DNA of 29,853 bases from positions 1 through 29,853 of the IMG/VR virus record IMGVR_UViG_3300048033_000253. The stretch is one strand, 5' to 3'. The stretch comes from a virus. Position numbers and translations under genes: made by a program. Of the stretch, positions 504 through 27,164 are shown in pieces. A model generated the notes under the pieces. It did no database searches, was not told where the DNA came from, and worked only from the letters and a program-made list of their open reading frames with translations. Numbering within the stretch: the stretch's first letter is position 1; each line of letters begins with the position of its first letter.

Positions 504-526
504 TTGCTTGTCTGAAGAGACTTCTG

Positions 527-6407: not shown

Positions 6408-6408
6408 A

Positions 6409-6648: not shown

Positions 6649-6753
6649 AGTTGTTCTCCGTCTTTTGCGTGTTTGTAGTACGTGTAAGTCATAACGGCTG
6701 AATATGTCTTACGAAGCTCACATTCTCCTTACTGTTTGCGGTAAATACGGGTG

Positions 6754-7047
6754 CTAATCTCCGCATTTGCTTGGTCGTTTACCTTTAACGGTAAGCATCC
6801 AATCGTTGAAGTCAGATGTAGCCATGAAGTCCTGCAAGATACGTTCAATAGCCCACAGTAGGTCTTCATCTACACCCATGTCCATCCCACCCTCGTCCTT
6901 AACGGGTACTGAGCATAGGTTGTAATACTTCATCAGGCTACACACTACAATCTCTTCTTCGAAGTCATCCTCTAGGTCACGCAACATACGGCTAAAGCGG
7001 TCTGTGACCTTATTAGCTGCGCTGCGGGTTACGTTGTAGTCACTCAT
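6754..7047 (-). CDS. Hypothetical acidic protein
   Basis: 97 residues: MSDYNVTRSAANKVTDRFSRMLRDLEDDFEEEIVVCSLMKYYNL... then an acidic middle and a helical end (LLWAIERILQDFMATSDFNDWMLTVKGKRPSKCGD). A GGAG ribosome site lies about 9 nt upstream and the gene overlaps its upstream neighbour by 8 nt. No family recognised. It is followed by a 105-nt gap, one of the few in the early arm, which holds no convincing gene. Confidence 0.68.
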   Translation of the reverse strand: MSDYNVTRSAANKVTDRFSRMLRDLEDDFEEEIVVCSLMKYYNLCSVPVKDEGGMDMGVDEDLLWAIERILQDFMATSDFNDWMLTVKGKRPSKCGD

Positions 7048-7264
7048 AATCTTTCACTCCGTGCTTGTCAATGTCATTTAGCATAAGGAGAAGGGACTTC
7101 TTAACGTCTTCAATATCCTCTCCTGTTACTTCTACAGGTTCTTCAGTCCAACCGTCACCATCTTTCATAGTGTAGTACTCGTGGATAGCATAGTAGCCAT
7201 CACCCTCAAAGGCAGCAGGCTTTTCACGCTTGTGATACATCAGTTGGTAATGCCAATAGCTCAT
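7040..7264 (-). CDS. Small conserved phage hypothetical protein
   Basis: 74 residues from the ATG at 7264, which overlaps the previous stop as ATGA; a GTG two codons earlier is possible. The sequence MSYWHYQLMYHKRE...YYAIHEYYTMKDGDGWTEEPV resembles a short protein I recall from many tailed phages, with the WHYQLM...IHEYY..DG..WTEEP pattern. Function unknown. The N-terminal half is rich in aromatic residues and looks beta-stranded; the C-terminal third is one helix (DIEDVKKSLLLMLNDIDKHG). Confidence 0.75.
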   Translation of the reverse strand: MSYWHYQLMYHKREKPAAFEGDGYYAIHEYYTMKDGDGWTEEPVEVTGEDIEDVKKSLLLMLNDIDKHGVKDYE

Positions 7265-7458
7265 TTGCACAAGTCCTCATACATCCATTTATATTCTTCC
7301 AGTTCCACAATCTTAGCCTCAGCCTTCGCCAGCTTGGCTTCCAGTTCCTCGATCCGTGCCTCTGCCTGCTCAAGCTCTGCCGTGACCTCTTGCAGTGCGT
7401 CCCAGTCCTCACGCTCGTCGAGGTGCTTGTTGATTGCGTATGTGTTTCCGTCAGTCAT
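7261..7458 (-). CDS. Coiled-coil hypothetical protein
   Basis: 65 residues. From about residue 15 to 55 it is an almost uninterrupted heptad pattern (ALQEVTAELEQAEARIEEL, then EAKLAKAEAKIVELEEYK), strongly predicting a coiled coil. Base composition is more GC-rich than in flanking genes (for example GAGCTTGAGCAGGCAGAGGC-type codons), which may reflect the repetitive Glu/Ala/Lys content or separate acquisition. ATGA overlaps link it to both neighbours. Function unknown; dimerisation is likely. Confidence 0.7.
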   Translation of the reverse strand: MTDGNTYAINKHLDEREDWDALQEVTAELEQAEARIEELEAKLAKAEAKIVELEEYKWMYEDLCK

Positions 7459-7847
7459 TCTGTTTCCTCCACGAATATCTCAGGGTTGCCGCCATCCTCA
7501 TCACGTTCAATGCGGTAGACGCAGAAGCGCTCCTCTGCTAGGAAGCCTTCAGAGTGATCACCCAGGTCTGCATCACTTCGAGTAGAACGCTGAGGGCTAA
7601 TCCAATCACCGTAAACATTGTGCCACGTTGTGATGCGCTTGGGGATGTCGTGGAGGTCGTATTGACTTTGTTCATCATCGTAATAAGCCCCCCGCTCTGT
7701 CCAAGAAGAAGCATATCCATCAGCATCATAACCAATAAACGGGGAACTTTTGTTTGGCCCTCGACCCAAGATGACAGCTTTGATACCAAACCCATCGACA
7801 TACTCTGCGGGGAACTCTGTTGGTGGTGTGAATTCACGGTCATCCAT
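7455..7847 (-). CDS. Hypothetical protein
   Basis: 130 residues from the ATG at 7847, preceded by AAGGAG at 7 nt; a GTG directly before it is an alternative. The sequence is acidic and Tyr/Trp-rich (REFTPPTEFPAEYVDGFGIKAVILGRGPN... YDADGYASSWTERGAYYDD), looks beta-rich, and has no catalytic motif I can name. It overlaps the small TM protein upstream by 8 nt and the coiled-coil gene downstream by 4 nt. Function unknown. Confidence 0.7.
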   Translation of the reverse strand: MDDREFTPPTEFPAEYVDGFGIKAVILGRGPNKSSPFIGYDADGYASSWTERGAYYDDEQSQYDLHDIPKRITTWHNVYGDWISPQRSTRSDADLGDHSEGFLAEERFCVYRIERDEDGGNPEIFVEETE

Positions 7848-7989
7848 CACGAAGCTCCTTCCTCAGGTCTTCACTAAGCTCTTTCCATTCGTGCTTCCAT
7901 TGGTATGCGCCGATAGTATCCAAGGCGAGGATGATAAACCAAAGCGCAATGCGCTCTCTGCGTGTCAGGTTTGGTAGTGGGTCACTCAT
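7840..7989 (-). CDS. 49-residue single-TM protein (short gene)
   Basis: Read on the reverse strand the frame gives MSDPLPNLTRRERIALWFII... ending DLRKELRDG, then TGA. Residues 13-29 (RIALWFIILALDTIGAY) form one hydrophobic segment preceded by Arg residues, so the protein probably has one membrane helix with a charged C-terminal helix. The ATG overlaps the ThyX stop as ATGA, and the end overlaps the next gene's start by 8 nt, the same spacing seen throughout this operon. This is strong evidence for a real gene despite its size. Function unknown; small early membrane proteins may affect host membranes or superinfection. Confidence 0.8.
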   Translation of the reverse strand: MSDPLPNLTRRERIALWFIILALDTIGAYQWKHEWKELSEDLRKELRDG

Positions 7990-8669
7990 TCTGTTTCTCC
8001 TTCCATAAGTGCAGTCCATGATACAGGGTACAGGTCTTGCATGATAGTAGACACTTGGTCAGCTACAAGGCGGCTCTCGTACTGTGTGTCTTCCTTACAC
8101 CGAAGGCGGCACATGTCAGCAAAGGCATCCAGTGAACCTGACCAGTACCACTCTGTCATAGTAGATTGTGGCAGTACCATACGGGCTTGCTCAGGTGCTA
8201 CACCAGCCTCTAGCATTGCCTCATAAACGCCAATGCAAATATCCTCCGCACGGTAGCTGTAGTGGTCGGGGAGATAAACATGGTAAGGGTCAAAATCCAC
8301 AACACCATCACTGCCTTGCTTCTTGTCAGCACTACGGCCACGCCATACGTCAGGCACATAGAACTCAGGTTCATCATCTACGTAACGACGACTGATCTCA
8401 TTCCAACGTAGGAACTTATGCTTCACAAGTTGTCGTGCCACAAAGATAGGAGCCTTGATGTGAAAGGATACGAAGGCGTGACCGAAGGGGCTGATGTGCT
8501 TGTGCTTGGCGAGATACTTGATGAGCTTGGTGTCACGTTCTGCTAGACGCATAGTCTGACTATCGTGGTATTCCCAGTCAGCCTTCTTACCAAAGCTAAC
8601 CCGTGCTGCGTTGACTACCGAAAGGTCTGACCCCATGTGGTCGATGTATGTTGTTGTGATCTGTGTCAT
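7986..8669 (-). CDS. thyX: Flavin-dependent thymidylate synthase ThyX
   Basis: 227 residues. It makes dTMP from dUMP using FAD, methylene-tetrahydrofolate and NADPH. The signature region is at 83-96: KHKFLRWNEISRRY, where the usual Arg-His-Arg is Lys-His-Lys, with Ser93 and Arg-Tyr at 95-96 kept. HKHISPFGHA (56-65) is the conserved upstream block, and MTEWYWSGSLDAFADMCRLR near the C-terminus is the family's TEWYWTG..N.F..R dUMP-site segment. With ribonucleotide reductase and MazG it forms a phage nucleotide supply set. Its ribosome site lies in a hairpin (8679-8694). Confidence 0.96.
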   Translation of the reverse strand: MTQITTTYIDHMGSDLSVVNAARVSFGKKADWEYHDSQTMRLAERDTKLIKYLAKHKHISPFGHAFVSFHIKAPIFVARQLVKHKFLRWNEISRRYVDDEPEFYVPDVWRGRSADKKQGSDGVVDFDPYHVYLPDHYSYRAEDICIGVYEAMLEAGVAPEQARMVLPQSTMTEWYWSGSLDAFADMCRLRCKEDTQYESRLVADQVSTIMQDLYPVSWTALMEGETE

Positions 8670-8678
8670 ACATTATCT

Positions 8679-8694
8679 CTCCTTATGTAAGGAG
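8679..8694. promoter_or_regulatory. Inverted repeat enclosing the thyX ribosome-binding site
   Basis: CTCCTTA and TAAGGAG form a perfect inverted repeat. On the thyX mRNA the AAGGAG that serves as ribosome site (9 nt before the ATG at 8669) is one arm of this hairpin. It shares two bases with the next hairpin (8693-8716), so both cannot form fully at once. Regulation of thyX translation is inferred. Confidence 0.5.
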
Positions 8695-8716
8695 GGGGAA
8701 CCGTTAAGCTCCCCCT
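8693..8716. terminator. GC-rich hairpin between the ssDNA-binding protein gene and thyX
   Basis: AGGGGGA (8693-8699) pairs with TCCCCCT (8710-8716) across a 10-nt loop. In the direction of the early operon the stem is not followed by a T run, so complete termination is unlikely; it may be a partial terminator, an RNA-processing or stability element for the abundant upstream message. On the + strand TTTAT follows the stem. Confidence 0.5.
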
Positions 8717-8736
8717 TTATGAAGTATATTCTATTT

Positions 8737-9225
8737 TTACCAGCGGTCGTCGGAACCTGCGCCCTCTACGTAGGGTACATGCTCAAGTACACCTACTTTC
8801 TCAAGTCGAATAGAAGCACGAGCCCCTTCTCCATACATTGACAGCTTGACAACAGCCTTGGTTCCGTTACCAAGTTCACCGTCCTCAATAAAGTCCCAAG
8901 GAACATTAGTCTTTCCTTTAGTAACTTTAGGAGCACCACCAAAGTCTTCGATGCCTTTCGGGTGTACATTAGGACGCTTGAGTTTCATACCTGAACGTCC
9001 GTCAGCAAACTCATACTGTTTGATCATTTGATTTCCCATAGAAACTTCTGGGTAACCCGCTTCGATCATACTGTTAAGCTCATCACTGTCCTTTGGAATA
9101 AAGACTGTGTTGTACTGGCCCTGTGTGGCCTCGTGATACTCAGCGTTGTCGATGTTATCCTCGTGAAGTTTTGCGTAGAAAAGCTCACCTTCGAATGCAA
9201 GGTACTTTGTCTTTGTCTTACTCAT
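8737..9225 (-). CDS. Probable single-stranded DNA-binding protein
   Basis: 162 residues with a good GAGGAG ribosome site. The layout resembles phage ssDNA-binding proteins: an N-terminal segment beginning YLAFEGELFYAKLHEDN, a central basic part (KLKRPNVHPKG), then VPWDFIEDGELGNGTKAVVKLSMYGEG and ASIRLEKVGVLEHVPYVEG, the 'W..dG.lGNGt..v.v..Y' and 'v.l..v.vl..vpy' strands seen in DUF2815/gp2.5-type proteins. The end (GAGSDDRW) is short, acidic and aromatic, loosely like the acidic aromatic tail T7 gp2.5 uses to contact polymerase and helicase. Its place right after DNA polymerase and a hairpin downstream fit a highly expressed replication protein. The family name is inference. Confidence 0.75.
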   Translation of the reverse strand: MSKTKTKYLAFEGELFYAKLHEDNIDNAEYHEATQGQYNTVFIPKDSDELNSMIEAGYPEVSMGNQMIKQYEFADGRSGMKLKRPNVHPKGIEDFGGAPKVTKGKTNVPWDFIEDGELGNGTKAVVKLSMYGEGARASIRLEKVGVLEHVPYVEGAGSDDRW

Positions 9226-9313
9226 GCTTTATCTCCTCTAAAGTTTTTGCATGTTAGTCGATTGATCTTCAGTGATTTCCTTACCCTATAAAAGGTAGGT
9301 TGTCAAGTAGAAA

Positions 9314-10354
9314 TTAGTGAGTGTCTCTCCAACTATTACCTATGTCAGTTGAGCCAGCTAGAGGGCATACCATATCAAACTTAACACCTGTGTCAACAAT
9401 AGATTGTCTCTGTATCTGACCTAAGTATTCCGCCTGATCCTTTGTCCCTTTAATCTCTGTCTGCCACTCATCGTGAGGCCATGTGACAAGCTTGAAGTCC
9501 AAGCCTTCCCTCTGTGCCTGCCTGTACCACTGGATTGCTGAGTGTTTCATAATGACAGACTCACCATTCTGTAGCATACCTGCCAGTGTCTTGTGCTCGC
9601 TTGGTACTTTAACCTTACGTCCGTCTAACCCACGGAACCACCCACGTTTAGCCACGTAGGGGATAACCTTCTTCTTTAGGTCAGCAAGTCCTTGGATGGA
9701 ATGTGTAAAGTTTTCAACAGCTTGAGAAGCTTCCCTCTGGTTTACCTTGAGTATCTCTGCAACCTTTGCGTTACCTGCACCCAAGAGGAATGCGTAGATA
9801 AAAGTCTTTGCGTCATCTCGTGTCACATGTGAGATACCTAGGGCTCTCTTGTTGAGGTTGTGGATGTCTGTCTCATCCTCCTTCTTACCTGACACAATAG
9901 CATGTACGTACGCTTCTGATTTCATAAGGTGAGCTAGTACCCTGAGTTGGATACCTTCTGCGTCTGTGCCTACCAGCCAGCTACCCTCAGGGACTGTCCA
10001 TAGGCCACGAAAGGCTCCGTCATATTTCTTCTTGACTTCCTCCACAGCTGACCGAGGATCACCGTGAAACTCTGAGGGAATGTTCGCTTGGTTAGGGGCT
10101 GAGTGTGCCATACGTCCAGTCCATGCGCCGATGTGGGTGAACCTACCATGAATACGTTTGTCCTCCTTAACGTGACCAAGCCATTCCACTAGGGAAGACC
10201 TGCGTCCCTCCAAGGTGAGCCACTGGGCTAGGTTCTTACCTCCCTCAGGTGCGTCATCGGGTAGTGTGTTAAGGTTAGTCTCAGATAGTGTCCAACCGTA
10301 TCGTGCAAACTTATCTCCACGATCTTTTGTTTTGTCTGTTGAGGTCACGTTCAT
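9314..10354 (-). CDS. DNA polymerase family A, polymerase (palm/fingers) part
   Basis: 346 residues holding the catalytic core of a T7-type DNA polymerase. Motif A is DAEGIQLRVLAH with Asp131; motif B is RDDAKTFIYAFLLGAG with Arg179, Lys183 and Tyr187; motif C is HDE (294-296). Tyr187 corresponds to T7 Tyr526 / E. coli Phe762; the position of E. coli Tyr766 / T7 Tyr530 is Leu191 here. The exonuclease and thumb are in the upstream ORF (10311-11219), which overlaps by 44 nt in a different frame. The residues after the junction (RGDKFARYGWTLSE) look like internal polymerase sequence, so the ATG at 10354 may be an internal start. It is followed by an 88-nt gap. Confidence 0.9.
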   Translation of the reverse strand: MNVTSTDKTKDRGDKFARYGWTLSETNLNTLPDDAPEGGKNLAQWLTLEGRRSSLVEWLGHVKEDKRIHGRFTHIGAWTGRMAHSAPNQANIPSEFHGDPRSAVEEVKKKYDGAFRGLWTVPEGSWLVGTDAEGIQLRVLAHLMKSEAYVHAIVSGKKEDETDIHNLNKRALGISHVTRDDAKTFIYAFLLGAGNAKVAEILKVNQREASQAVENFTHSIQGLADLKKKVIPYVAKRGWFRGLDGRKVKVPSEHKTLAGMLQNGESVIMKHSAIQWYRQAQREGLDFKLVTWPHDEWQTEIKGTKDQAEYLGQIQRQSIVDTGVKFDMVCPLAGSTDIGNSWRDTH

Positions 10355-11219
10355 ACTCCATATGTCCTTTCGTCTTGTCTACTGGTTGCCAACCAGCCTC
10401 CCAAAGCCTGTCAATTCTTTTCTTAGGAGAAGCAGGATCGAAGGGTATCCAATCGTAACACCTAAGTTCAGGTGGGTTGAACGACCAGTCAACCTCAGTC
10501 TTAAAGTATTTCTCCTGAGCCTTGACAACATTTGACATAAGACTGTTGTCCTTCTTACGTCGATACTTGATCCTGTTCACCTCCTCAAGTTTAGGTGGGA
10601 AGTCCTCTTGGAAGCCAGCCTCAAGTCTGTCCATCTCACATATGATTTCTCCTAAGAGTTCCTCAGCTTTGTCTTCATCAAAGAAGAAGCCATTGGCTGT
10701 CATCTCCTCACACATGATCTGAATGTCATGCTCACACCTCAAGGATTCCTGCCAGTCAGGTTCAAGGATAATCTTCTCGAACCTTCGGTAAAGCTGAACG
10801 GTTACCTCTACATCTTGGTGACAGTAGTCAATCATCTCCTGTGTCAGAACCTCAAAGCCTTTGAAGTCTAACTTGAAGTCACCTAAGCGGATACCCCAAG
10901 CACGAAGGCTGTGTCCCTTACCATCCATTGTGTAGTCCACAAGGCGTGACACAATTAGGGTGTCCACTACTTTACTTGGGTCAACACTGCCTGCACCCAA
11001 GAGTTTGTTGATCATCGGTATATCAAAACCAATACCGTTATGTAAAACAAGACGATCATAATGTCCGATGTATCCAAGGAACCTCTCCTTCTCTTCTGCT
11101 ATGTGGGAGACATTAAGGAACTGCTCTCGTTCCCCTGTCTCTATATCCTGTGTGCAGATAACGTGAATGCGGGTGGCATCCAAGGCATCTGTCTCAATGT
11201 CCATCGCTAGGTTTCTCAT
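10311..11219 (-). CDS. DNA polymerase family A, 3'-5' exonuclease and thumb part
   Basis: 302 residues. The proofreading exonuclease motifs are complete: Exo I DIE (Asp7, Glu9), Exo II HNGIGFD (Asp66) and Exo III YCHQD (Tyr132, Asp136). The rest continues into the polymerase thumb; PFDPASPKKRIDRLWEAGWQP corresponds to the T7 polymerase segment FNPSSRDHIQKKLQEAGWVP. The ORF stops at 10311 where a normal polymerase would go on to the palm, which is found at once in another frame at 10354. The pair together would give a polymerase of about 645 residues, close to T7 gp5 (704). The upstream membrane-protein stop abuts this ATG. Confidence 0.9.
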   Translation of the reverse strand: MRNLAMDIETDALDATRIHVICTQDIETGEREQFLNVSHIAEEKERFLGYIGHYDRLVLHNGIGFDIPMINKLLGAGSVDPSKVVDTLIVSRLVDYTMDGKGHSLRAWGIRLGDFKLDFKGFEVLTQEMIDYCHQDVEVTVQLYRRFEKIILEPDWQESLRCEHDIQIMCEEMTANGFFFDEDKAEELLGEIICEMDRLEAGFQEDFPPKLEEVNRIKYRRKKDNSLMSNVVKAQEKYFKTEVDWSFNPPELRCYDWIPFDPASPKKRIDRLWEAGWQPVDKTKGHMEYERDLNRQNKRSWR

Positions 11220-11450
11220 TTAGTAATCCTCATCGTCCTCATCAAAGAAGAAGTCAGGGAGAAGGAACATCAAGAAGTATTGCAGGGTGAAGAATACCCA
11301 CACACTTGAGTTAAACATAGCCTTGGTGTGGTTCATCTGTTCTGACATATCGTTCAATACAAAGATTGTTCTGATGTGGGTATAGTGCAGGAAGATACCT
11401 AAGAAGTAGACAACAGCTAAGGCTGAGGCAAGGATATCAAAATTCAGCAT
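11220..11450 (-). CDS. Small membrane protein with two TM segments
   Basis: 76 residues from the ATG at 11450 (GGAG 7 nt upstream, inside the end of the helicase gene); a start at 11468 is less well supported. Hydrophobic segments at about 3-24 (NFDILASALAVVYFLGIFLH) and 46-68 (NSSVWVFFTLQYFLMFLLPD) predict two membrane helices, followed by a very acidic tail (FFFDEDDEDY). The gene lies between the helicase and polymerase genes, an unusual spot for a membrane protein, and its stop touches the polymerase ATG. No family recognised. It might anchor replication at the membrane, which is speculation. Confidence 0.75.
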   Translation of the reverse strand: MLNFDILASALAVVYFLGIFLHYTHIRTIFVLNDMSEQMNHTKAMFNSSVWVFFTLQYFLMFLLPDFFFDEDDEDY

Positions 11451-13062
11451 ACTTTTGCTCCAATACAAATGTTTCAGGGTTGAACTTTAGCTGGCCTGCA
11501 AATCCTGTAGGTCCAACAGGTCTGTTCTTTGTGACCAGTAGTTTCGTTGTGTTCCTTTCGTCAGGGTCTTCTGACATTTTGTCACGCAGAAGTTCCACCA
11601 CAACGGAGGCTCTCTGCTCAATCATACGACAATACTTTACAGCACCATCATCATTGGTGTGTCCAATGGTTACGATACCAACCCCAAGTTCAGCTGCCAG
11701 CTTAGACAAACGCACAGATAGGTCAGCAAGGAATTGTTCTTTGCTCTCTTCTCCTGCTAGGTTAGCTGAGATATCTTGGATAGGCTCAAAGAATACATAG
11801 TTCACACCACATGCCTGAGACAGGTAACGTATGTGACCAAGAAGATCAAGGGGATCGTCCTCATCGTTCAAGAAGAACTGAAAGAGCCTCTCGTCTACAC
11901 TCAAGCGAGCAATGGATTCCTCTACCTCCTTACCTAGGTCTGCGTCATCAATCAAATCCTTTCGTGTCACGTTCTTGTTCAAGTCATATGACACAAGACC
12001 AAGGAGAGACCTAAGCTTTGTCTCCTCCATATGCCAGATAGCAATCTTAATATCTGGGTGGTTCTTCAGGATGTGGTGCTCAAGGTAGCGCATGAACTCA
12101 GTCTTACCTATGCCTGTCTGTGCCTTGAACAGGGTAAAGTGTCCCTGCATGAGGCCAACAGCTAGATCATCGAAGTCTTGGATACCTGTAGGGATTGACA
12201 CATGGTCACCTGAGTCCCTGTATAGCTTCATAAATTGATCAGTAGTATTCAGGACATTCTCAGGTGTATACTTCTTGGCGTTAAACCAAGCGTGAAAGAA
12301 TGCCTCAGTCTGACCAGCCTCAAGGAACTCATTGGCGTCCTTGTATTTGTCATGCTGCACCCGATAGACTTTGTTAGGGAACAGGTTAGCTATACGTTGA
12401 GCCACTGCATTCCCTTGTTCGTCATGTTCTATTGACAGGACAATCTTTTCGAAGGAACCAAGCCACTCAGACACATTAGCCCAGAGCTTAGAGCTTGGGG
12501 TGGCTGAGGGTAGTGACACAAAGGCTGAGTTATACTTAGGTCGGCGGCACATTTGGTATGCTGACATAGCATCAAGTTCACCCTCACACACCGTGACGAT
12601 CCGCCCTGAACCTGCATTCCAGAGGTTCATACCGAAGAGCTCATCTGACTTAAGGTTCTTCGCTGAGAATTGCTTGGGGAAGTAGCGTGTTTTAACGCCG
12701 CCTGAGGGGTAGATGTAGTCTTGGGCTACCTCCTCCCCTTGGCTATTCACCTTGGTCTTCACGCCGTAAAAACGCATGGTCTCCGAGTTAATTCCACGCA
12801 CTGTCCGATAGACAGAGGTGAGTATCTCCTGAGGCACAGGCTTAAGTTCTACTTTCTGTTGTTCCATTGTATCCCATGAGTCCTTGTCAGATAGTGTTGG
12901 GTATTCATCCTCAGCCCAGTCGAATTTCTTGTCCTTTGAGCGAGGGTATTTTCTTTCGCAGCTGTGGCATCTACCCGCACAACTCTCAAGGTTGTAACTA
13001 AATGCATCAGTGCTCCCACATTCCTCATAAGGGCAGGGTTGGTGTGCTTTCCAGCTGCTCAT
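11437..13062 (-). CDS. Primase-helicase (T7 gp4-like)
   Basis: 541 residues; T7 gp4A has 566. The N-terminal zinc-binding site uses Cys10, Cys15, Cys32 and Cys35 (CPYEEC...CHSC). The TOPRIM primase core has CEGELDAMSAY (Glu160) and IEHDEQGNAVA (211-221). The C-terminal DnaB-type helicase has a PTGIQDFDDL lead-in (291-300), Walker A AQTGIGKT at 314-321 and the Walker B strand VFFEPIQD (423-430), where Glu replaces the usual Asp. It unwinds DNA and lays primers for the phage polymerase. AGGA lies 7 nt before the ATG, which overlaps the upstream stop as ATGA. Confidence 0.96.
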   Translation of the reverse strand: MSSWKAHQPCPYEECGSTDAFSYNLESCAGRCHSCERKYPRSKDKKFDWAEDEYPTLSDKDSWDTMEQQKVELKPVPQEILTSVYRTVRGINSETMRFYGVKTKVNSQGEEVAQDYIYPSGGVKTRYFPKQFSAKNLKSDELFGMNLWNAGSGRIVTVCEGELDAMSAYQMCRRPKYNSAFVSLPSATPSSKLWANVSEWLGSFEKIVLSIEHDEQGNAVAQRIANLFPNKVYRVQHDKYKDANEFLEAGQTEAFFHAWFNAKKYTPENVLNTTDQFMKLYRDSGDHVSIPTGIQDFDDLAVGLMQGHFTLFKAQTGIGKTEFMRYLEHHILKNHPDIKIAIWHMEETKLRSLLGLVSYDLNKNVTRKDLIDDADLGKEVEESIARLSVDERLFQFFLNDEDDPLDLLGHIRYLSQACGVNYVFFEPIQDISANLAGEESKEQFLADLSVRLSKLAAELGVGIVTIGHTNDDGAVKYCRMIEQRASVVVELLRDKMSEDPDERNTTKLLVTKNRPVGPTGFAGQLKFNPETFVLEQKYAEF

Positions 13063-13313
13063 ACTTCTATCCTATCCCAGTAAATTGCTTGTGCGACACC
13101 CTCCATATAGCCAATGTCCTCGCTAGTCAACAGGAAAGCCTCACCCTCAGGTGTGTTGACAGAGAAGGAGAAGGTAGGTTCCTCAAGTATCTCAATGAAA
13201 CCTGATGTATCCCCTAGGCCTGTCTCCCATGTGTAATCCCCGTGATCTGTTACCTCAGCACCCACTTGGATTTCCTCACAGTCTACTGTTTGTATCTCAA
13301 AATTAAACTTCAT
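13059..13313 (-). CDS. Hypothetical acidic protein
   Basis: 84 residues from the ATG at 13313, with GAGGA 5-6 nt upstream; a GTG four codons earlier is the alternative. The sequence MKFNFEIQTVDCEEIQVGAEVTDHGDYTWE... is acidic and looks beta-rich, ending in a helix (DIGYMEGVAQAIYWDRIEV). No family recognised. It is the gene immediately before the primase-helicase (ATGA overlap). Its upstream flank (13314-13396) holds a consensus promoter that points the opposite way. Confidence 0.72.
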   Translation of the reverse strand: MKFNFEIQTVDCEEIQVGAEVTDHGDYTWETGLGDTSGFIEILEEPTFSFSVNTPEGEAFLLTSEDIGYMEGVAQAIYWDRIEV

Positions 13314-13332
13314 CTTAGTCCTCACTTTCTTG

Positions 13333-13360
13333 TTGACAGATTGGAAAACCTGTATATAAT
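13333..13360 (+). promoter_or_regulatory. Consensus sigma70-type promoter, antisense to the early operon
   Basis: TTGACA at 13333-13338, a 16-nt spacer and TATAAT at 13355-13360, both perfect matches. Predicted start is about 13367. It reads rightward, against the leftward early genes, so it would make RNA antisense to genes at 13397-14770. The -10 region shares TGTATATAATA with the promoter at 27136-27164. Confidence 0.72.
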
Positions 13361-13364
13361 AGGG

Positions 13365-13382
13365 CTTGTCCCTGACAAGGGA
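13365..13382. promoter_or_regulatory. Hairpin at the predicted 5' end of the antisense transcript
   Basis: Two alternative small stems: TCCCT(GACA)AGGGA at 13369-13382, or CTTGTC(CCT)GACAAG at 13365-13379. The first begins two bases after the predicted start of the promoter at 13333-13360. No T run follows on either strand, so it does not look like a terminator. Confidence 0.45.
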
Positions 13383-13396
13383 GATATAGGTAATAC

Positions 13397-13567
13397 CTAG
13401 GTGATAGACCCTGAGGACTTTATATCTTTTATAAGATAATCAGTATCCCTTAGGTCTTGCTCTCTAAGTTCTTCTTCATCTAGTAGCTTCTCATATTCTT
13501 CTACTTCCTTAATAGTTTTCCTATGGAAGGAGTGAAAGTTTAAGGAGCTCTTGTTCTCTATCACCAT
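13397..13567 (-). CDS. Small charged helical hypothetical protein
   Basis: 56 residues from the ATG at 13567, which overlaps the upstream stop by 7 nt; a GTG at 13600 is less likely. The sequence is highly charged (TIKEVEEYEKLLDEEELREQDLRDTDYL) and predicted helical, possibly a short coiled coil. The ribosome site is weak (GAGAG). No family recognised. The gene lies downstream of, and antisense to, the promoter at 13333-13360. Moderate confidence that it is real, based on packing. Confidence 0.6.
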   Translation of the reverse strand: MVIENKSSLNFHSFHRKTIKEVEEYEKLLDEEELREQDLRDTDYLIKDIKSSGSIT

Positions 13568-13773
13568 TTCTTTTCTCTCACTTTCCAGTAGACCCAACAC
13601 TCAGAGCAATGCTGAGGGCCTAATAGTTTGTCAATCAAGAAGGTCAGGTTAGGTTTTCCTTCCTTCTTCCATGCGTGATTCCTTGCGCTGAAGGTTTGAT
13701 TACTAGGGCCCCCAAGTATTACATTAGCTAGGACACTCAGGGCTAACCCTACTCTTGTCAAGTATTCTGTCAT
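13561..13773 (-). CDS. Conserved phage hypothetical protein with hydrophobic N-terminus
   Basis: 70 residues from the ATG at 13773 (AAGGGG about 5 nt upstream), starting MTEYLTRVGLALSVLANVIL. The block VGLALSVLANVILGGPSNQTFSARN, then KEGK.N.T.LIDKLLG..HC..CWVYW, matches a small conserved protein I recall from many phages, function unknown. The N-terminus is hydrophobic enough for one membrane helix, and the C-terminal HCSECW pair could bind metal. Upstream it is 8 nt from the end of the HTH gene; downstream it overlaps the charged small protein. Confidence 0.78.
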   Translation of the reverse strand: MTEYLTRVGLALSVLANVILGGPSNQTFSARNHAWKKEGKPNLTFLIDKLLGPQHCSECWVYWKVREKKW

Positions 13774-13780
13774 ATCCCCT

Positions 13781-13984
13781 TCAGCTTTCCAGAGTATAGC
13801 GCACATAGCGCTGGCCTGTCACTGGGTGACGCTTAGGCACTGACACAATGTCATGGCCTTGTTCACGTAGCTCTTGGATACGTTTGGTCAGGCTGCTTAT
13901 GCTATACTCAACCAAAGCTTCTCGCACAGTGAGGCCTTTGGTTTGCTTGAGGTGCTTAAGAATCTTCTCGTGTTGCGTTTTCAT
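13781..13984 (-). CDS. Helix-turn-helix DNA-binding protein
   Basis: 67 residues from the ATG at 13984 with AAGGA 8 nt upstream. A winged-helix-type reading head is clear: HEKILKHLKQTKGLTVREALVEYSI as the first helices, SSLTKRIQELREQGHDI as the recognition helix, then a beta wing (VSVPKRHPVTGQRYVRYTL). It fits the small phage HTH family (PF14090-like). As the third gene of the early arm it is the best candidate in this window for a transcription regulator acting on the control region at 14771-15918, though this is inference from position and fold. Confidence 0.85.
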   Translation of the reverse strand: MKTQHEKILKHLKQTKGLTVREALVEYSISSLTKRIQELREQGHDIVSVPKRHPVTGQRYVRYTLES

Positions 13985-13988
13985 GGTC

Positions 13989-14162
13989 TTATCCTTCCAT
14001 CTCATATTGTGTTTTTACTTGTTCAACCTGCTCATGTGTCAGGTACATAGCTATCTCTTCAGCTAATGCTAATGCTCTGTCTGAGCTTTCATCATCAGGT
14101 GCATTGATAGCTAAGTCAACAGCTAATGCAAAGGCTGTCACGGGGTCTTGTATCTGTGTCAT
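13989..14162 (-). CDS. Small acidic hypothetical protein
   Basis: 57 residues from the ATG at 14162, starting MTQIQDPVTAFALAVDLAIN. The pattern QDP.TA.ALA..LA..AP, then ALALAEEIA..LT..EVEQVK, resembles a short alanine-rich protein common in phages, known only as hypothetical. AAAGGA lies about 11 nt upstream. It is predicted all-helical, soluble and acidic. It starts 17 nt after the stop of the first early gene and ends 4 nt before the HTH protein start. Confidence 0.72.
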   Translation of the reverse strand: MTQIQDPVTAFALAVDLAINAPDDESSDRALALAEEIAMYLTHEQVEQVKTQYEMEG

Positions 14163-14179
14163 TGATGTCTTTTCCTTTA

Positions 14180-14770
14180 TCAAATGTTATGGATACGCTT
14201 CCACGTTGTCCACGTGATTGCTTGAAGTACGTGAGGCTTTACGCCTACTCGCTTAGCTGCCTTGACGTAAGCCTCTTGAAGCTCACGATACTCACGCTTG
14301 CCCATGTTAGTCTTGTCGCTTGTCAAGCCCTCACGTTTACCTCGTGCAATGTTCAAAGCATGACCATCTATTGTCACCTCGTCAAGCCCACGAATGTTAG
14401 AGTAAAACGATCTGATCTTCTGGCCGTTAAGGTGCGACAGAATGTCCTCGTCGTCTGTCAAACCTAGGTCAAGTATAGTCCAAGCCTTCTGTTTCATTGT
14501 GTTATAGCAGGATACCTTGAAACTATCCATGCTCTCACCTGCAACCCAAGCCTGACACATAGTCGCAGCATCCTTGCAGTTGCGTTCCCATCGGTTATTA
14601 GGTGACAGTGCGGCCATGACACCAATCACAGTAGGTAGTGGCAAGCCAGCGTCCTTAGCTATAGCCTTAGCCATGCGTTCTGCTCTTGCATACCATTCGA
14701 CACCATTAACAGTATCTTCCTGAGTAGCTTGGCGATATAGTTTAAGAATGTTGCGAACGTGATTAGTCAT
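14180..14770 (-). CDS. Phage protein of DUF7178-like type, possibly HhH-GPD glycosylase-like
   Basis: 196 residues; first gene of the early arm, with AGGAAAG 4-5 nt before the ATG. I know the pattern (GVMAALSPNNRWERN..DA, then KAWTIL, HLNGQKIRSFYSNI, VTIDGHALNIARG) as an uncharacterised phage family, probably DUF7178. The segment ILSHLNGQKIRSFYSNI followed by EVTIDGHAL (Asp135, His137) has the order of the helix-hairpin-helix and catalytic Asp regions (L.G.G.kt.a...vD.H) of HhH-GPD DNA glycosylases. If so, it would act on DNA bases. This is a motif-level inference. The C-terminus is basic (KRVGVKPHVLQAITWTTWKRIHN). Confidence 0.78.
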   Translation of the reverse strand: MTNHVRNILKLYRQATQEDTVNGVEWYARAERMAKAIAKDAGLPLPTVIGVMAALSPNNRWERNCKDAATMCQAWVAGESMDSFKVSCYNTMKQKAWTILDLGLTDDEDILSHLNGQKIRSFYSNIRGLDEVTIDGHALNIARGKREGLTSDKTNMGKREYRELQEAYVKAAKRVGVKPHVLQAITWTTWKRIHNI

Positions 14771-15067
14771 AATCTTTCCTCTCTCTTTTAAAGCTTAAAC
14801 GTCCGAACCTCTCAGGCGCTTAAGGCTTTGCTCTATTATCGGGTGTAACCCTAAGAGCAAGAGTAATGCTAACAATGTCAAACAGCGTGTGAGACCTTGG
14901 TTTGCCTTGTGTCTCGGTTAGTGTAGTCAGGTTAGTCTTAGTCAGTTTGGGTTGTCAATCCCTGTTTTAGTCTCTTTCACCCTCTTGCTTGCTAGGTGCT
15001 GCACGGTAGCGCAGGTTGACACAGTGACGTTGGTATCTCGTATGTGTCTGTGTTTGCTTGCCGATGT

Positions 15068-15086
15068 ACACAAGGTGACACAAGGT
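15068..15086. repeat. Two direct 9-bp repeats ACACAAGGT, period 10 bp
   Basis: ACACAAGGT occurs at 15068-15076 and 15078-15086, exactly one helical turn apart. Function unknown; could be a protein-binding pair. Confidence 0.6.
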
Positions 15087-15143
15087 TTCTCATATGTCAA
15101 CAGTTATTTTCTAATCTTTATTTTACCTAGAGAAGCTATCCTG

Positions 15144-15157
15144 TTTGTGATCACAAA
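15144..15157. promoter_or_regulatory. Perfect 14-bp palindrome, candidate operator
   Basis: TTTGTGATCACAAA is its own reverse complement. Its TGTGA/TCACA halves are those of CRP/FNR-family sites but without the usual 6-bp spacer, so CRP itself is not expected. It lies in the early leader 374 bp upstream of the first early gene. A homodimeric HTH protein could bind here. Confidence 0.5.
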
Positions 15158-15189
15158 AGGAACCTATAGGGCATTCTATAAGGAACCTA
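15157..15189. repeat. Two direct copies of AAGGAACCTA
   Basis: Copies at 15157-15166 and 15180-15189, separated by 13 bp (period 23 bp). The first copy touches the palindrome at 15144-15157. Role unknown. Confidence 0.5.
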
Positions 15190-15316
15190 AGTAAGGTTAA
15201 GGTTAATACTTTATAGGGTGTCAGTAGAACGTGAGTGATTCCATTGGGTTAGAGGCTCAGGGATTAACCTGTGTGTATTTCCGAAAGTATACCTCAAGAC
15301 CCCTAACCCCTAGTGC

Positions 15317-15366
15317 AACACACATGAACACACATGAACACACATGAACACACATGAATACACATT
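15317..15366. repeat. Tandem 10-bp repeat, four perfect units plus one degenerate
   Basis: The unit AACACACATG occurs at 15317-15326, 15327-15336, 15337-15346 and 15347-15356; AATACACATT (15357-15366) is a decayed fifth copy. The 10-bp period places every copy on the same face of the DNA helix, as for iterons or cooperative operators. The reverse-strand open frame across it is a translation of the repeat, not a gene. Confidence 0.85.
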
Positions 15367-15393
15367 AGCATTCCCTGCACAGGAAAAGGGGGA

Positions 15394-15409
15394 CTAGGGT
15401 TTTCCCTAG
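15394..15409. repeat. Inverted repeat CTAGGG-TTTT-CCCTAG
   Basis: A 6-bp perfect stem with a 4-nt loop, flanked by G-rich sequence. No T run follows, so it is not a clear terminator. Confidence 0.45.
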
Positions 15410-15420
15410 GTGTAGACTTT

Positions 15421-15440
15421 AGGGGGTGCAAGGGGGTGCA
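15421..15440. repeat. Tandem pair AGGGGGTGCA
   Basis: Two perfect adjacent 10-bp units (15421-15430, 15431-15440). It is the third element in this region with a 10-bp period and is strongly G-rich on the + strand. Confidence 0.7.
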
Positions 15441-15513
15441 CGGGTATCCTTCTATATGTACAATGCACCAAAAGATTTTCTCATAGTTTTTCCTACCATG
15501 TAAAAACAGAAGA

Positions 15514-15544
15514 AGCTCCCTATGGTATTTAACCAAGGGGAGCT
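15514..15544 (-). terminator. Hairpin terminator in the leader of the early transcript
   Basis: AGCTCCC (15514-15520) pairs with GGGAGCT (15538-15544), and inside it TGGT pairs with ACCA, giving a long stem with one small internal loop. Read leftward the stem is followed by TCTTCTGTTTTTA, the T-rich side, so it should act on leftward transcription. It lies about 210 nt after the predicted start of the leftward promoter (15788-15760) and 740 bp before the first early gene, so it would attenuate early expression or define a short RNA. Confidence 0.65.
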
Positions 15545-15553
15545 CCAGTGTGT

Positions 15554-15661
15554 AGATTCTAATGTTTACTCTAGTGTAATGACAAAAAGGAGGAGGAGTA
15601 CTTAAGTTAGATTCTGATGTTTACTTAAGTAGTCCCTACAGATTCTGATGTTTACTTAAGT
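15554..15661. repeat. Three copies of a 22-bp repeat containing ACTTAAGT palindromes
   Basis: Copies AGATTCTGATGTTTACTTAA(GT) at 15609-15630 and 15640-15661 are identical; 15554-15575 is a diverged copy. An 8-bp palindrome ACTTAAGT ends the two good copies (15623-15630, 15654-15661) and occurs once more at 15600-15607. Spacings are 55 and 31 bp. The repeats lie within the transcribed leader of the leftward promoter. They look like iterons or operator sites. Confidence 0.8.
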
Positions 15662-15734
15662 ACTACTTCTCCTACTAAGATGTTATACTCAGACAAGGTG
15701 AGGATATACCTTAGTATAGGGTATATACTATATA

Positions 15735-15752
15735 TCACCCCTGACGGGCTGA
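15735..15752. promoter_or_regulatory. Hairpin at the predicted 5' end of the early (leftward) transcript
   Basis: On the leftward strand TCAGCCC-GTCA-GGGGTGA folds with one G-G mismatch around a GTCA loop. It begins one base after the start predicted from the -10 element at 15765-15760. It is likely a 5' stability structure, by analogy with 5' hairpins of other phage messages. Confidence 0.45.
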
Positions 15753-15759
15753 CACTGTA

Positions 15760-15788
15760 AGTGTACCAATTCTTTGTCCTCCTGTCAA
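15760..15788 (-). promoter_or_regulatory. Leftward sigma70-type promoter for the early arm
   Basis: On the reverse strand TTGACA (15788-15783), a 17-nt spacer, and TACACT (15765-15760). The -35 is perfect, the -10 matches 4 of 6, and the spacing is ideal. Predicted start is about 15753. It diverges from the rightward promoter, with the two -35 elements 45 bp apart. Confidence 0.65.
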
Positions 15789-15833
15789 GAACAAAATAAC
15801 ATCTTCTCATAAAAAAAATAATAAACTTTTGTG

Positions 15834-15862
15834 TTGACAACTAGGAATCCTTCTGTTATACT
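15834..15862 (+). promoter_or_regulatory. Rightward sigma70-type promoter for the late arm
   Basis: TTGACA (15834-15839), a 17-nt spacer and TATACT (15857-15862), with an extended -10 TG one base before it (TGTTATACT). Predicted start is about 15869, 50 nt before the terminase small subunit ATG. Confidence 0.8.
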
Positions 15863-15870
15863 TCCATTCA

Positions 15871-15895
15871 AATACTTCGAGTAGCTCCTAGTATT
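15871..15895. promoter_or_regulatory. Hairpin at the predicted 5' end of the late transcript
   Basis: AATACT (15871-15876) pairs with AGTATT (15890-15895); GAG/CTC inside the loop can add a short inner stem. It starts two bases after the predicted start of the promoter at 15834-15862. Confidence 0.45.
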
Positions 15896-15918
15896 CCCTA
15901 AAAGGTCGCATATAAACC

Positions 15919-16449
15919 ATGATGTACACCTACGAGCAGCTAAAGGCTGTAACTGGTAAACCCCGCACGAAAAGTTTGTTCTACGAGCTCAGCTACGTTG
16001 ATCCTTCCAATGCTCTCTTCACACTGAAGGAACGAGACATTGAGGCTCACGGTAGACACTATGTCTCCCTTAGAAATCTTTTCGTAGCTATGGTCCCTAA
16101 TGACCCAACTGAGTATGAGTTCGCACAGACAGTCTTCGGTTCATGGGAGAACTGGGAGGCTATCTGTAAGTCACCCTTCGTCAAGCCTCACATCCAGAAG
16201 TGGCGTAATGAGGTTGAGGTTAAGATTAAGTCTCAGGCTATCCAAGCTATCGCTGAGGAAATGAAGTCAAACGGACGTTCCTCCTTTAGTGCAGCTAAGC
16301 TTCTCCTTGATAAAGGTTGGCTAGATAAAGACTCAGCTGCACAAGCTAACAAGAAGTTAAAAGCTAAAGAAGAAGAAGAACAGAATAAAGAAGCTCTGTC
16401 AATCTTGTCAGAAGATGCAGAACGTCTTGGCTTGAACAAACTAAACTAA
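15919..16449 (+). CDS. Terminase small subunit
   Basis: 176 residues (the second codon is also ATG). The N-terminus (YTYEQLKAVTGKPRTKSLFYEL), the GRHYVSLRNLF segment, DPTEYEFAQTVFGSWENWE, and a helical C-terminus ending in a highly charged coiled coil (KKLKAKEEEEQNKEALSIL) match the layout I recall for small terminases of marine T7-like and SIO1-like podoviruses. Small terminases bind the packaging site and hand DNA to the large subunit. It is the first late gene, 57 nt after the predicted +1 hairpin region begins. The large subunit is unusually distant (21647), with tail fibre genes in between. Family assignment is moderately confident. Confidence 0.8.
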   Translation: MMYTYEQLKAVTGKPRTKSLFYELSYVDPSNALFTLKERDIEAHGRHYVSLRNLFVAMVPNDPTEYEFAQTVFGSWENWEAICKSPFVKPHIQKWRNEVEVKIKSQAIQAIAEEMKSNGRSSFSAAKLLLDKGWLDKDSAAQANKKLKAKEEEEQNKEALSILSEDAERLGLNKLN

Positions 16450-16506
16450 TTGTATCCACCTCTCAGCCTAGTGCTGTTGAATACGGAAGGTAAAGGATAA
16501 AACACC

Positions 16507-18537
16507 ATGGTAAAAAGACCAGACATTACAACTATTGCTTCAGGCTACTACAGTCGTCAGGCACTTAACACTAACTTTGAGAACCTACAAGCAGGGTTCG
16601 ATAATACTTTGTCATTGGACGGTAGCACACCTAATGCTATGGGTGCTGACCTTGACATGAACTCCAATGACATCTTGAATGCTAGTCTTGTAGACACAGA
16701 TGCACTTAAGATCAATGGTACACTTGTTGGTGTAGGCTATCTTAGTGCAGCTGGTGCAACTCTGTCATCCATCTCTCACATAGGTAACGGTAGCACAGTA
16801 GCATTCTCTACAGGCTACCAAGCATTCATTACAGACAACACACAAGTTTATATTGATGGTGTGTACCAGAACAAAGCTGGATACAGCATCTCAGGGACTA
16901 CCCTGACGTTCTCTGAGGCTCCTCCTCTTAATGCTGACATTGAGATTGTTGTAGCTCGTACCTTGGACTTTGGTGCTGATGATGCAGCTAACGTAAACTA
17001 CAACCAAGGTGGTTCAGGTTCTGTCAATCGTACAGTGCTTACGAAGCTGCAAGAGTTTGTATCGGTCAAAGACTTCGGTGCTGTCGGTGATGGCGTGACG
17101 GATGACACTGCGGCTATTCAGGCTGCGATTGATGCTGTTGCAAATGTTGATGGTGATTTGGAGGCGGCTGGTGTTTATTTGCCGATTGGCACATATCGTG
17201 TGACTGCACAGATCAATGTAACTGGGGCAAAATTATTTGGTGAAGGCATAAAATCAGTCATCCTTCAAGATGGTGACTTCACTGTTCTTTTTTCAGACGA
17301 AACTTGTCACTTGGAAGGTTTCATTCTTAACGGGCAATGGAATGGAACTGATCCAGCAACAGGCAATCCAACTATTCTACACAAAAAGGGAACAGGCACT
17401 TATGGTGCTTGGACGGGGCAGGTTCATTACAAAGATGTTTTTGTAAAAAATTCAAGAGACACTGGTATTAGTGTAAATGGATGCGGCTATTCAACTCTTT
17501 ACAACGTTACAGTAAGGGGTGCAGCCGCAAATGGTCTTGATCTCATAGGAGATCAGGCAACTCTTGCTGCAATTACATCAACAACAATTTATAATTTTAA
17601 TGGGGGATCGATTGGTGGATACGCAATCAACCTTCGTGATGGATTTGCTATCAACTTCAATGGCTGCGTTTGGGAATTGTGTGACGGTGTAAACATCACT
17701 GGAAGCAGTAACAGGTCCATTTCTTTTACTGGATGTTATTCTGAAGCTATTTCAAGTGGGAACATGCCAATTAACTTCACCAGTGCTGGTGGTTTAGGCT
17801 TGCATGTTACTGGGTGTTATCTGGCATCGGCTCCATCTGGAACAACTCAATCATTTGATGGGACTGGTTTCAGAAGGATTTTTGTCGCTTCATCAACTGG
17901 TGAAAACGGTGGTCGTTATGATGATGACAACCCGTTTGTATTTAATCGTGCATCAAGCAATGGCTCCATTATTGAAGTCGAACGCAATGAAGTGAAGCAG
18001 TTTGATATTCGTGCAGAAAGTGGTGTCAGCACTCTTCAAACGTATCCTACAAACTCGCAATGGCGTATCAGGTTTAAAGATAGTGCAGACGTTGATCGTG
18101 GTATTGAACTTGTTGAGGATACTGGGGTTCCAGTGCTGCGCCCTGCACAAGACAACATTATGGACTTGGGTGCTGCCGCCAGACGTTTTGACGACATCTA
18201 CGCAACAAACGCAACAATCCAAACATCTGACAAAAATGACAAGCAAGATGTAGCTGTTTTGTCTGATGCAGAACAACGTGTTGCTTCGGCTTGCAAGGGC
18301 CTGCTGCGTAAATTTCGGTGGAAAGATGCTGTAGTTGAAAAGGGTGATAAAGCCCGTATTCACTTTGGTGTTATTGCACAGGACTTACAATCTGCATTTG
18401 AGGCTGAAGGATTAAATGCCGAAGAGTATGGATTGTTTATCTCTAACACTTGGATTGATGAAGAAACTAATGAAGAGCATACCCGCATGGGGGTCAGATA
18501 CTCCGAATTGCTCACCTTCATTATTGCAACTATGTGA
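16507..18537 (+). CDS. Tail fibre/tailspike with pectate-lyase-like beta-helix and S74 chaperone domain
   Basis: 676 residues in three parts. Residues 1 to about 185 are the likely virion-attachment region; its ITDNTQVYIDGVYQNKAGYSISG segment is typical of T7-type fibre N-termini. From about 188, VSVKDFGAVGDGVTDDTAAI opens a right-handed beta-helix of the pectate lyase 3 type, which usually binds or cuts surface polysaccharide. The last 104 residues are a peptidase S74 intramolecular chaperone: TSDKNDKQDV gives the Ser574/Lys579 dyad for self-cleavage after trimer folding, and HFGVIAQDL and RYSELLTFIIA follow as in the family. Nucleotide style changes near 17060, suggesting a swapped receptor-binding part. 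Confidence 0.9.
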   Translation: MVKRPDITTIASGYYSRQALNTNFENLQAGFDNTLSLDGSTPNAMGADLDMNSNDILNASLVDTDALKINGTLVGVGYLSAAGATLSSISHIGNGSTVAFSTGYQAFITDNTQVYIDGVYQNKAGYSISGTTLTFSEAPPLNADIEIVVARTLDFGADDAANVNYNQGGSGSVNRTVLTKLQEFVSVKDFGAVGDGVTDDTAAIQAAIDAVANVDGDLEAAGVYLPIGTYRVTAQINVTGAKLFGEGIKSVILQDGDFTVLFSDETCHLEGFILNGQWNGTDPATGNPTILHKKGTGTYGAWTGQVHYKDVFVKNSRDTGISVNGCGYSTLYNVTVRGAAANGLDLIGDQATLAAITSTTIYNFNGGSIGGYAINLRDGFAINFNGCVWELCDGVNITGSSNRSISFTGCYSEAISSGNMPINFTSAGGLGLHVTGCYLASAPSGTTQSFDGTGFRRIFVASSTGENGGRYDDDNPFVFNRASSNGSIIEVERNEVKQFDIRAESGVSTLQTYPTNSQWRIRFKDSADVDRGIELVEDTGVPVLRPAQDNIMDLGAAARRFDDIYATNATIQTSDKNDKQDVAVLSDAEQRVASACKGLLRKFRWKDAVVEKGDKARIHFGVIAQDLQSAFEAEGLNAEEYGLFISNTWIDEETNEEHTRMGVRYSELLTFIIATM

Positions 18538-18546
18538 GGAAATAAC

Positions 18547-19404
18547 ATGACAATTAAGCAGCAAGGCGGCATCTTTGGAAGAAACCCAACATTCAACAAT
18601 GTTGAAGTTGATGGAACTTTGACCGCAAACTCAGTTTCCACGAGCCAGTTTGATACGTCCATTGATGTTAATGGCAGTGTCACCAGCAACGGCTTTATTG
18701 TAGACACAGCATCTACAGCAAATCTTGCCACATATACTTACACAAGTGTTGATCGTTCGAAGATTGAAGGTCAACAGGTAGGTGGTGCTGGTGGCAAACT
18801 TGATTTCAAAACCAATGATGGTGGAGGTTTAAAGTCACGGGTTAATATCGATCATGTTGGTGACGTTGTTTTTTACAAAACTGACGGAACCACTGCTGGC
18901 ATGACTTACGATGCGTCTGCGTTTTCTTTGGCATTTGCATCTGGTGGTGGCATCGACTTCTCTGCCACCTCTGGCACTGGCACAAGCGAACTGTTCGATG
19001 ACTATGAAGAGGGGACGTGGACGCCGAGTGTAATCGGTGCAACCAGCGGGTCTATGTCTTTTGGTAGTGTGGCAATTGCCAGATACACTAAGGTTGGCAG
19101 GATCGTTTCAATTAACCTTTACATGACTGGCGGTGATTTTGCGGCACACACGGTTTCAGGAAATGTGCTGATCCAAGGTCTGCCATATGCTGCATCATCT
19201 GTTGGCGCTGGTGTAATTTCTGTGGCGTATTGCAACCTGACAACGGCAGACGAAGCTGACATTACCCTTTCAGGATATGTTGAAGCAACATCCCTTCGTC
19301 TTTTGAAGGGCAGTTCTACCTCGGCAGTAACTGGTGCTGACTTGGCTTCATCTGGAACAAACGGGGCAATCATGCTCAGCATCGTATATGAAACGGGGGC
19401 GTAA
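18547..19404 (+). CDS. Tail fibre-associated protein
   Basis: 285 residues. It begins MTIKQQGGIFGRNPTFNNVEVDGTLTANS, a repeat-like beta pattern found near the bases of phage fibres, and contains LFDDYEEGTWTPSVIGATSG (about residues 150-170), the 'DYEEGTWTP' motif that marks many tail fibre and receptor-binding proteins. The C-terminal part (about 155-285) is a predicted all-beta domain that could bind a receptor. The stop is followed at once by the ATG of the next tailspike gene, and it starts 9 nt after the S74 fibre stop, so the three form one cassette. Exact role unknown. Confidence 0.8.
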   Translation: MTIKQQGGIFGRNPTFNNVEVDGTLTANSVSTSQFDTSIDVNGSVTSNGFIVDTASTANLATYTYTSVDRSKIEGQQVGGAGGKLDFKTNDGGGLKSRVNIDHVGDVVFYKTDGTTAGMTYDASAFSLAFASGGGIDFSATSGTGTSELFDDYEEGTWTPSVIGATSGSMSFGSVAIARYTKVGRIVSINLYMTGGDFAAHTVSGNVLIQGLPYAASSVGAGVISVAYCNLTTADEADITLSGYVEATSLRLLKGSSTSAVTGADLASSGTNGAIMLSIVYETGA

Positions 19405-27135: not shown

Positions 27136-27164
27136 TTGACAGAATAGTCAGAAGTGTATATAAT
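27136..27164 (+). promoter_or_regulatory. Consensus sigma70-type promoter for the tail genes
   Basis: TTGACA (27136-27141), a 17-nt spacer and TATAAT (27159-27164), a perfect match in both boxes and spacing. Predicted start is about 27171. It starts a new transcript directly after the capsid terminator. Confidence 0.85.

Follow-up and report, generated by a model that had tools for sequence, protein, structure and literature searches.

What is a perfect sigma-70-type promoter doing inside a phage early operon that reads in the opposite direction? The question arises from the stretch of DNA analysed here, a 29,853-base virus record (hereafter the window) whose genes resemble those of Lentibacter phage ICBM2 and Roseobacter phage CRP-5, with a fused primase-helicase that is 75% identical to the ICBM2 counterpart and 76% identical to that of CRP-5. 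By sequence affinity the window is a Veravirus-like roseophage (Zobellviridae, Cobavirinae). The accessible text of the cobavirus paper (PMC6775973) reports such phages from numerous marine metagenomes and describes SIO1 as being without an RNA polymerase gene; no RNA polymerase gene is annotated in seven related phage records. Every likely gene within 736-14770 of the window is oriented leftward, the rightward (late) genes begin at 15919, and the early/late junction crossed between ~14.8 and 15.9 kb matches the layout of the relatives, since ICBM2 and CRP-5 have oppositely oriented early and late genes. Terminal repeats are annotated in ICBM2, and in the window a non-coding stretch near the genome junction (15316-15365) contains tandem ACACATGAAC-type repeats.

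Within the leftward operon the sequence TTGACA-N16-TATAAT reads rightward at 13333-13360 (+), as the initial annotation had claimed, and we term it P_A, for antisense promoter. It reads away from the primase-helicase and, again as anticipated, against the five small genes that come first in the early arm. The supposed primase-helicase pair next to it is in fact one fused gene, with a small ORF lying between this gene and P_A (Table 1).

Table 1. Positions of the P_A cassette, its neighbouring genes and the other promoters of the window
Feature	Position	Strand	Remark
P_A -35 hexamer TTGACA	13333..13338	+	TTGACA in 76/76 antisense loci
P_A -10 hexamer TATAAT	13355..13360	+	T-12, A-11, T-7 invariant in relatives; middle three bases variable
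Dyad CTTGTC-CCT-GACAAG	13365..13379	.	Stem pairing kept despite sequence change
AT-rich box GATATAGGTA, 3' of dyad	13383..13392	+	Conserved in alignment A1
Fused primase-helicase gene	11437..13062	-	75-76% identity to ICBM2 and CRP-5
Small ORF, function unassigned, between primase-helicase and P_A	13059..13325	-	Relative of ICBM2 gp8
Five small first early genes, opposed by P_A	13397..14770	-	ORF list
First early gene, DUF7178	14180..14770	-	
First early gene	13989..14183	-	
First early gene, winged HTH	13781..14005	-	
First early gene	13561..13806	-	
First early gene	13397..13600	-	
P_E, leftward promoter TTGACA-N17-TACACT, convergent with P_A	15760..15788	-	Promoter scan
Rightward promoter TTGACA-N17-TATACT, before the late genes	15834..15862	+	Promoter scan
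P_L, second perfect promoter TTGACA-N17-TATAAT, after capsid gene	27136..27164	+	Pattern scan

P_A is very probably a real promoter, judging from its match to the consensus and from the conservation described below. The 29 promoter-like sites detected within 1-20000 are no more than expected by chance (26.2 ± 5.4), so that only P_A, the sole 12/12 match among them, stands out. The window contains two perfect TTGACA-N15-19-TATAAT sites, at 13333 and 27136, where 0.05 would be expected, and a count of two was reached in 0/100 shuffles. The spacing of 16 nt in P_A falls within the 16-18 nt between -35 and -10 boxes that marks sigma-70-type promoters, and the key bases TTGAC, T-12, A-11 and T-7 are invariant in 28 distinct sequences, as selection on them would produce. 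The RNA start predicted from this arrangement is at ~13367-13368, inside a dyad that adjoins the promoter.

The cassette is conserved across the clade of the window. A search for relatives of the primase-helicase returned 262, of which the best 80 were kept; in 72 of the 73 of these loci with at least 450 nt upstream, the cassette is directed away from the primase-helicase and against the early genes. The one exception, L048, has no cassette at the expected place; there a stretch normally located at most 70 nt from the primase is found ~870 nt away, and an insertion has probably moved the expected cassette place off the contig. Four shorter loci among the remaining seven are likewise antisense, and three are without usable upstream DNA. 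TTGACA is present in all 76 antisense loci, with a spacing of 16 in 72 and of 17 in four; the -10 box is TACCCT in 51, TATAAT in only 14, TATCCT in nine, and TATGCT and TATGAT in one each, so promoter strength probably varies across the clade. The cassette also occurs in ICBM2 and CRP-5, with one strong match per genome in these two phages and the window, and a search of ICBM1, P12053L, SIO1, CRP-4 and CRP-6 yielded no match. Some members have, in addition, a sense promoter closer to the primase (12/12 in L056-L059, 11/12 in L072 and L073), which would free the replication genes from conflict with P_A; in the window, the promoter scan found no perfect or near-perfect sense promoter near the primase.

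Constancy of the promoter letters is claimed from a promoter-blind set rather than from our 35-row alignment (A1), because the latter was partly picked with a pattern demanding TTGAC and TAnnnT. When IMG/VR was scanned for the dyad pattern alone, all of the 73 viral contigs recovered had TTGACA (66) or TTGACG (7), in every case separated by exactly 16 nt from a TAnnnT box adjoining the dyad block, and across the 28 distinct sequences the middle of the -10 box and most spacer positions vary around the invariant bases. The constancy of T-7 is of note given that, according to the accessible text of PMC8407463, more than 60% of the promoters of four alphaproteobacteria are without this base. In bacterial and archaeal genomes (257 Gb, 84,980 genomes) the dyad pattern gave two matches, about the chance number, both without a promoter and one resembling a tRNA gene by eye. 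A weak match in Salmonella phage Munch (E = 0.02) was taken as chance, and this phage was rejected as a cassette carrier.

Comparison of the loci also indicates that the promoter letters are not a side effect of neighbouring genes. TTGACA is kept in the window and L060 though the start and likely ribosome-binding site of the neighbouring gene have shifted away (by eye), and it is kept in L077 and L081, where the cassette directly adjoins the primase-helicase and the small ORF does not intervene. The genes on the other side of the cassette vary among members, and the 3' end annotated for gp08 in CRP-5 overlaps the dyad, as no gene does in ICBM2. Both boxes are thus kept in relatives whose flanking genes differ (72/73 loci; 73/73 blind-scan contigs), a comparison that the initial annotation had proposed.

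The whole cassette extends over ~65 nt and comprises the promoter, the dyad at the start site and the AT-rich box. The stem of the dyad occurs as CTTGTC/GACAAG, CTTGCC/GGCAAG, TTGTCC/GGACAA, CTGTC/GACAG, CTCTGC/GCAGAG and CATCGC/GCGATG, with pairing kept in each of these variants. Summed over 13 distinct leaders, there are 60 paired positions, as against 35.8 ± 3.3 (maximum 47) in 300 shuffles, with two of the 13, L059 (2) and L248 (3), being without a long stem by Watson-Crick pairs alone. The loop ranges from 3 to 6 nt, a variability that fits poorly with a rigid dimer site or fixed-spacing operator. In several members of the sister clade described below the dyad begins directly behind the -10 box, upstream of where RNA could plausibly start, which fits poorly with a pure RNA hairpin; taken together with the predicted start inside the dyad, this favours a role at the DNA level, for example as a candidate regulator site. 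No U-run follows the dyad, and the terminator scan did not pick it up. Conservation of the cassette ends ~45 nt after the -10 box, and no conserved small ORF is present just after the P_A start. Two further candidates were discarded on inspection by eye: a leftward promoter TTGTCA-N16-TATACA in the same stretch, for which -10 position 6 is not T in most relatives, and base-pairing between the dyad and TGTCAAG in the leftward mRNA, which is not kept in L056, L077 and L081. In five virus contigs (L086, L089, L093, L125 and L134), GGGTAGTATATACC comes after TTGACAGATTGTTCAAACGTGTATATAAT, an arrangement similar to the AT-rich leader box seen in these phages.

A second orientation of the cassette emerged from the blind scan. 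Nine of its 73 contigs are without the usual neighbours, and in eight of these the cassette faces a different, downstream primase-helicase (57% identity to that of the window), at a distance of 80 nt or across an intervening HNH gene; the ninth contig (L142) ends within the HNH gene. This gene (Pfam HNH_3, AP2; L163 7980-8522), which looks like a mobile homing-endonuclease gene, is found between cassette and primase in L144, L163, L170, L190 and L193 and is absent from this position in L177, L182 and L194. A search with the sister-clade primase gave 190 relatives, of which the best 80 were kept, 70 of them with at least 450 nt upstream; the cassette is in sense orientation in 56 of these (35 by profile, 21 by pattern), antisense in none and without a match in 14, some of the sense labels resting on weak profile matches (E up to 9e-4) or on our own pattern, run on both strands. 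In many of the loci it stands at the position of an ordinary gene promoter.

On a primase tree of 56 proteins, quickly built with the long SIO1 branch as outgroup after the distant primase of L114 had been dropped, the clade of the window comprises 18 rows (17 antisense, one without the cassette; support 99) and the sister clade 36 rows (23 sense, 13 without or too short; support 100), such that the two states are separated by one change. CRP-6 and SIO1 belong to neither clade and CRP-4 to the sister clade, all being without the cassette by this method. The likeness of the two clades' cassettes over ~65 nt suggests one cassette in two orientations, rather than chance. We tentatively propose, as a scenario more doubtful than assured, a single inversion of this cassette (or its gain in opposite directions) when the sister clades diverged, with both states maintained since. 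A promoter driving the replication genes and an antisense gate that reads late-ward against the early arm would then be two orientations of one element.

From the cassette, its conservation and its two orientations, which are evident in the sequences themselves, we infer the activity of P_A, its timing, its regulator and its effect on the early genes. Our best reading, to which we accord a little less than an even chance, is that P_A is a regulated host-sigma70 promoter, reversed relative to its sister-clade counterpart, and that by transcribing in the late direction it interferes with transcription of the early arm. The main sigma-70-type RNA polymerase of the host would start at P_A; in the sister clade the same cassette would presumably drive the primase-helicase. 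In the clade of the window transcription would follow the late-gene direction and produce RNA antisense to the first early genes, and the polymerases would meet those coming down the early arm toward the primase-helicase, with collision and antisense pairing most likely damping or ending early-arm transcription. For convergent promoters more than 200 bp apart, the accessible text of PMC4731013 leads one to expect interference mainly by collision, with antisense RNA adding to it. The presence of a dyad at the start site hints at a DNA-binding regulator, which would time the firing of P_A.

Certain considerations tell against interference. A strong unregulated antisense promoter would hurt the replication genes as well, and with TATAAT in only 14/76 antisense loci its strength is probably variable. 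The dyad could serve an RNA, or a regulator unrelated to early shut-off, and Rho, by inference, could stop the untranslated antisense RNA early. The more specific suggestion that the point of P_A is to shut off the HTH regulator among the opposed genes does not hold as a general role, as the two are not linked across phages: ICBM2 has both an HTH relative (by tblastn) and the cassette, CRP-5 has the promoter and no HTH match, and ICBM1, P12053L and SIO1 have an HTH relative and no promoter.

The best-surviving alternative to interference, though an unlikely one, is that P_A is simply a late-direction promoter, whose RNA on a concatemer would cross the terminus and supplement expression of the late genes that begin at 15919; any antisense effect would then be a by-product. 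P_A does point late-ward, the window itself runs from early arm to late arm, and the terminator scan detected no convincing rightward intrinsic terminator between 13367 and 15919. This path is, however, ~2.5 kb long and untranslated, a separate rightward promoter at 15834 stands directly before the late genes, and the opposite direction of the cassette in the sister clade implies that late expression is not its general job.

The other promoters of the window also bear on how P_A might be controlled. The initial annotation had likened its -10 region to that of a tail-gene promoter and suggested the same class of control. The likeness stands, the -10 regions of P_A and P_L being identical over TGTATATAAT; the gene that P_L precedes (27213-27779) has a product of unassigned function (phrog_38624), and in ICBM2 tubular protein A is the annotation of the gene that follows the counterpart. 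The leaders of P_A and P_L are alike at P = 0.15 in the window, 0.08 in ICBM2 and 0.0055 in CRP-5, and those of P_A and P_E at P = 0.008, 0.55 and 0.012, respectively (all uncorrected, with 18 comparisons made); the leader likeness is thus weak in ICBM2, mixed for the window and suggestive for CRP-5, and a shared class of control for P_A and P_L is no more than a possibility. About 240 nt after P_E lies a strong leftward terminator-like hairpin (15546-15512 (-); GGAGCTCCCC...GGGAGC, then TTCTTCTGTTTTT; -21.4 kcal/mol), which suggests that P_E may yield a short transcript close to the end of the genome instead of driving the early genes. Siovirus phages have two late-direction perfect promoters each, which share an identical 22-nt downstream box AGTCTTAACAAGTCTCCCCTGC and lie on the minus strand (SIO1 (L139) 8612 and 37512; ICBM1 (L140) 39888 and 29377; P12053L (L141) 38681 and 30175). 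CRP-4 (L138) has two early-direction promoters at 1648 and 39777 (+), with -10 boxes once more of the TACCCT class and a common leader ATCTT...ACTTAAAGGATA.

Rather less probable still is a transcription-primed replication origin, at which promoter and AT-rich box would make a primer or open the DNA, such that position matters and orientation does not. The cassette indeed stays by the primase-helicase in both clades though its direction differs, and third-position G-C skew shifts across it, being greater upstream than downstream in 28/29 antisense and 26/33 sense loci, a contrast whose control is flawed by truncated primase ORFs. However, the shift may reflect gene content, given how small and unusual the first early genes are, and the place of an ordinary gene promoter that the cassette takes in many sister-clade loci speaks against an origin.

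Improbable, too, is a hairpin between genes of the leftward early mRNA, acting in processing or in translation control of the next gene, with the promoter letters incidental. The leftward mRNA would contain the entire dyad, while an RNA starting rightward near 13367 would lose part of the left arm, and stem changes in L159 and L176 leave a G-U pair on the leftward strand only. Those in L056 and L079, on the other hand, leave one on the rightward strand only; TTGACA and TAnnnT, which have no pairing with the dyad, persist where the stem changes, and the sister-clade promoter reads along with the genes. A promoter followed by a stem might also suggest a small regulatory RNA made from P_A, which is highly improbable given that conservation stops ~45 nt after the -10 box and no terminator follows the stem. 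Equally remote is the reading of P_A as a decayed, functionless remnant of the promoter found in the sister clade, turned round by chance: many members do have a non-consensus -10 box, but neither the -35 box nor the key -10 positions vary within the clade, and a perfect TATAAT occurs in several subgroups.

If the inversion scenario is the correct one, regulatory logic would have been changed by flipping one short cassette, with no new genes. The two orientations of the cassette suggest that reversing a promoter can rewire the timing with which phage genes are read. The antisense P_A and its sense homologue in the sister clade constitute a natural pair for studying the early-to-late switch in phages that depend on host RNA polymerase, and allow one to ask whether convergent transcription is a tool that phages are selected to use. 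We found no description of cobavirus promoters in the open-licence literature; the word "promoter" is absent from the accessible text of the cobavirus paper (PMC6775973) and has 0 occurrences in that of the RCA-phage papers PMC6918029 and PMC8528129.

Among known systems, the closest in composition are the PeSL (promoter early stem-loop) cassettes of T4-like phages (Arbiol 2010 and Comeau 2014, as described or cited in the accessible portions of PMC4503421 and PMC3950731), which likewise join a short host-type promoter and a stem-loop between genes and are able to appear in varied settings; the 2014 title, as cited there, speaks of promoter-terminator motifs. The P_A cassette differs from them, so far as those portions describe them, in its single strong copy per genome (window, ICBM2, CRP-5), its fixed place beside one gene with a direction that differs between clades, its dyad without a terminator U-run, and its lack of any sign of gene shuffling. 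Like P_A, the lambda promoter paQ sits inside a phage operon and reads against operon genes, and the accessible text of PMC2327240 has it lowering Q and hence late gene expression; paQ, though, belongs to a temperate phage and needs the activator CII, whereas P_A opposes early genes and is not known to depend on an activator. With the ordinary sigma-70 promoters of phages dependent on host RNA polymerase, P_A shares TTGACA-N16/17-TAnnnT, and it departs from them in opposing its operon clade-wide and in having a dyad at the start site. Thus, antisense phage promoters and promoter-stem-loop cassettes are already known kinds, while a clade-wide antisense promoter with the same cassette reversed beside the same gene in a sister clade is, to our knowledge, new.
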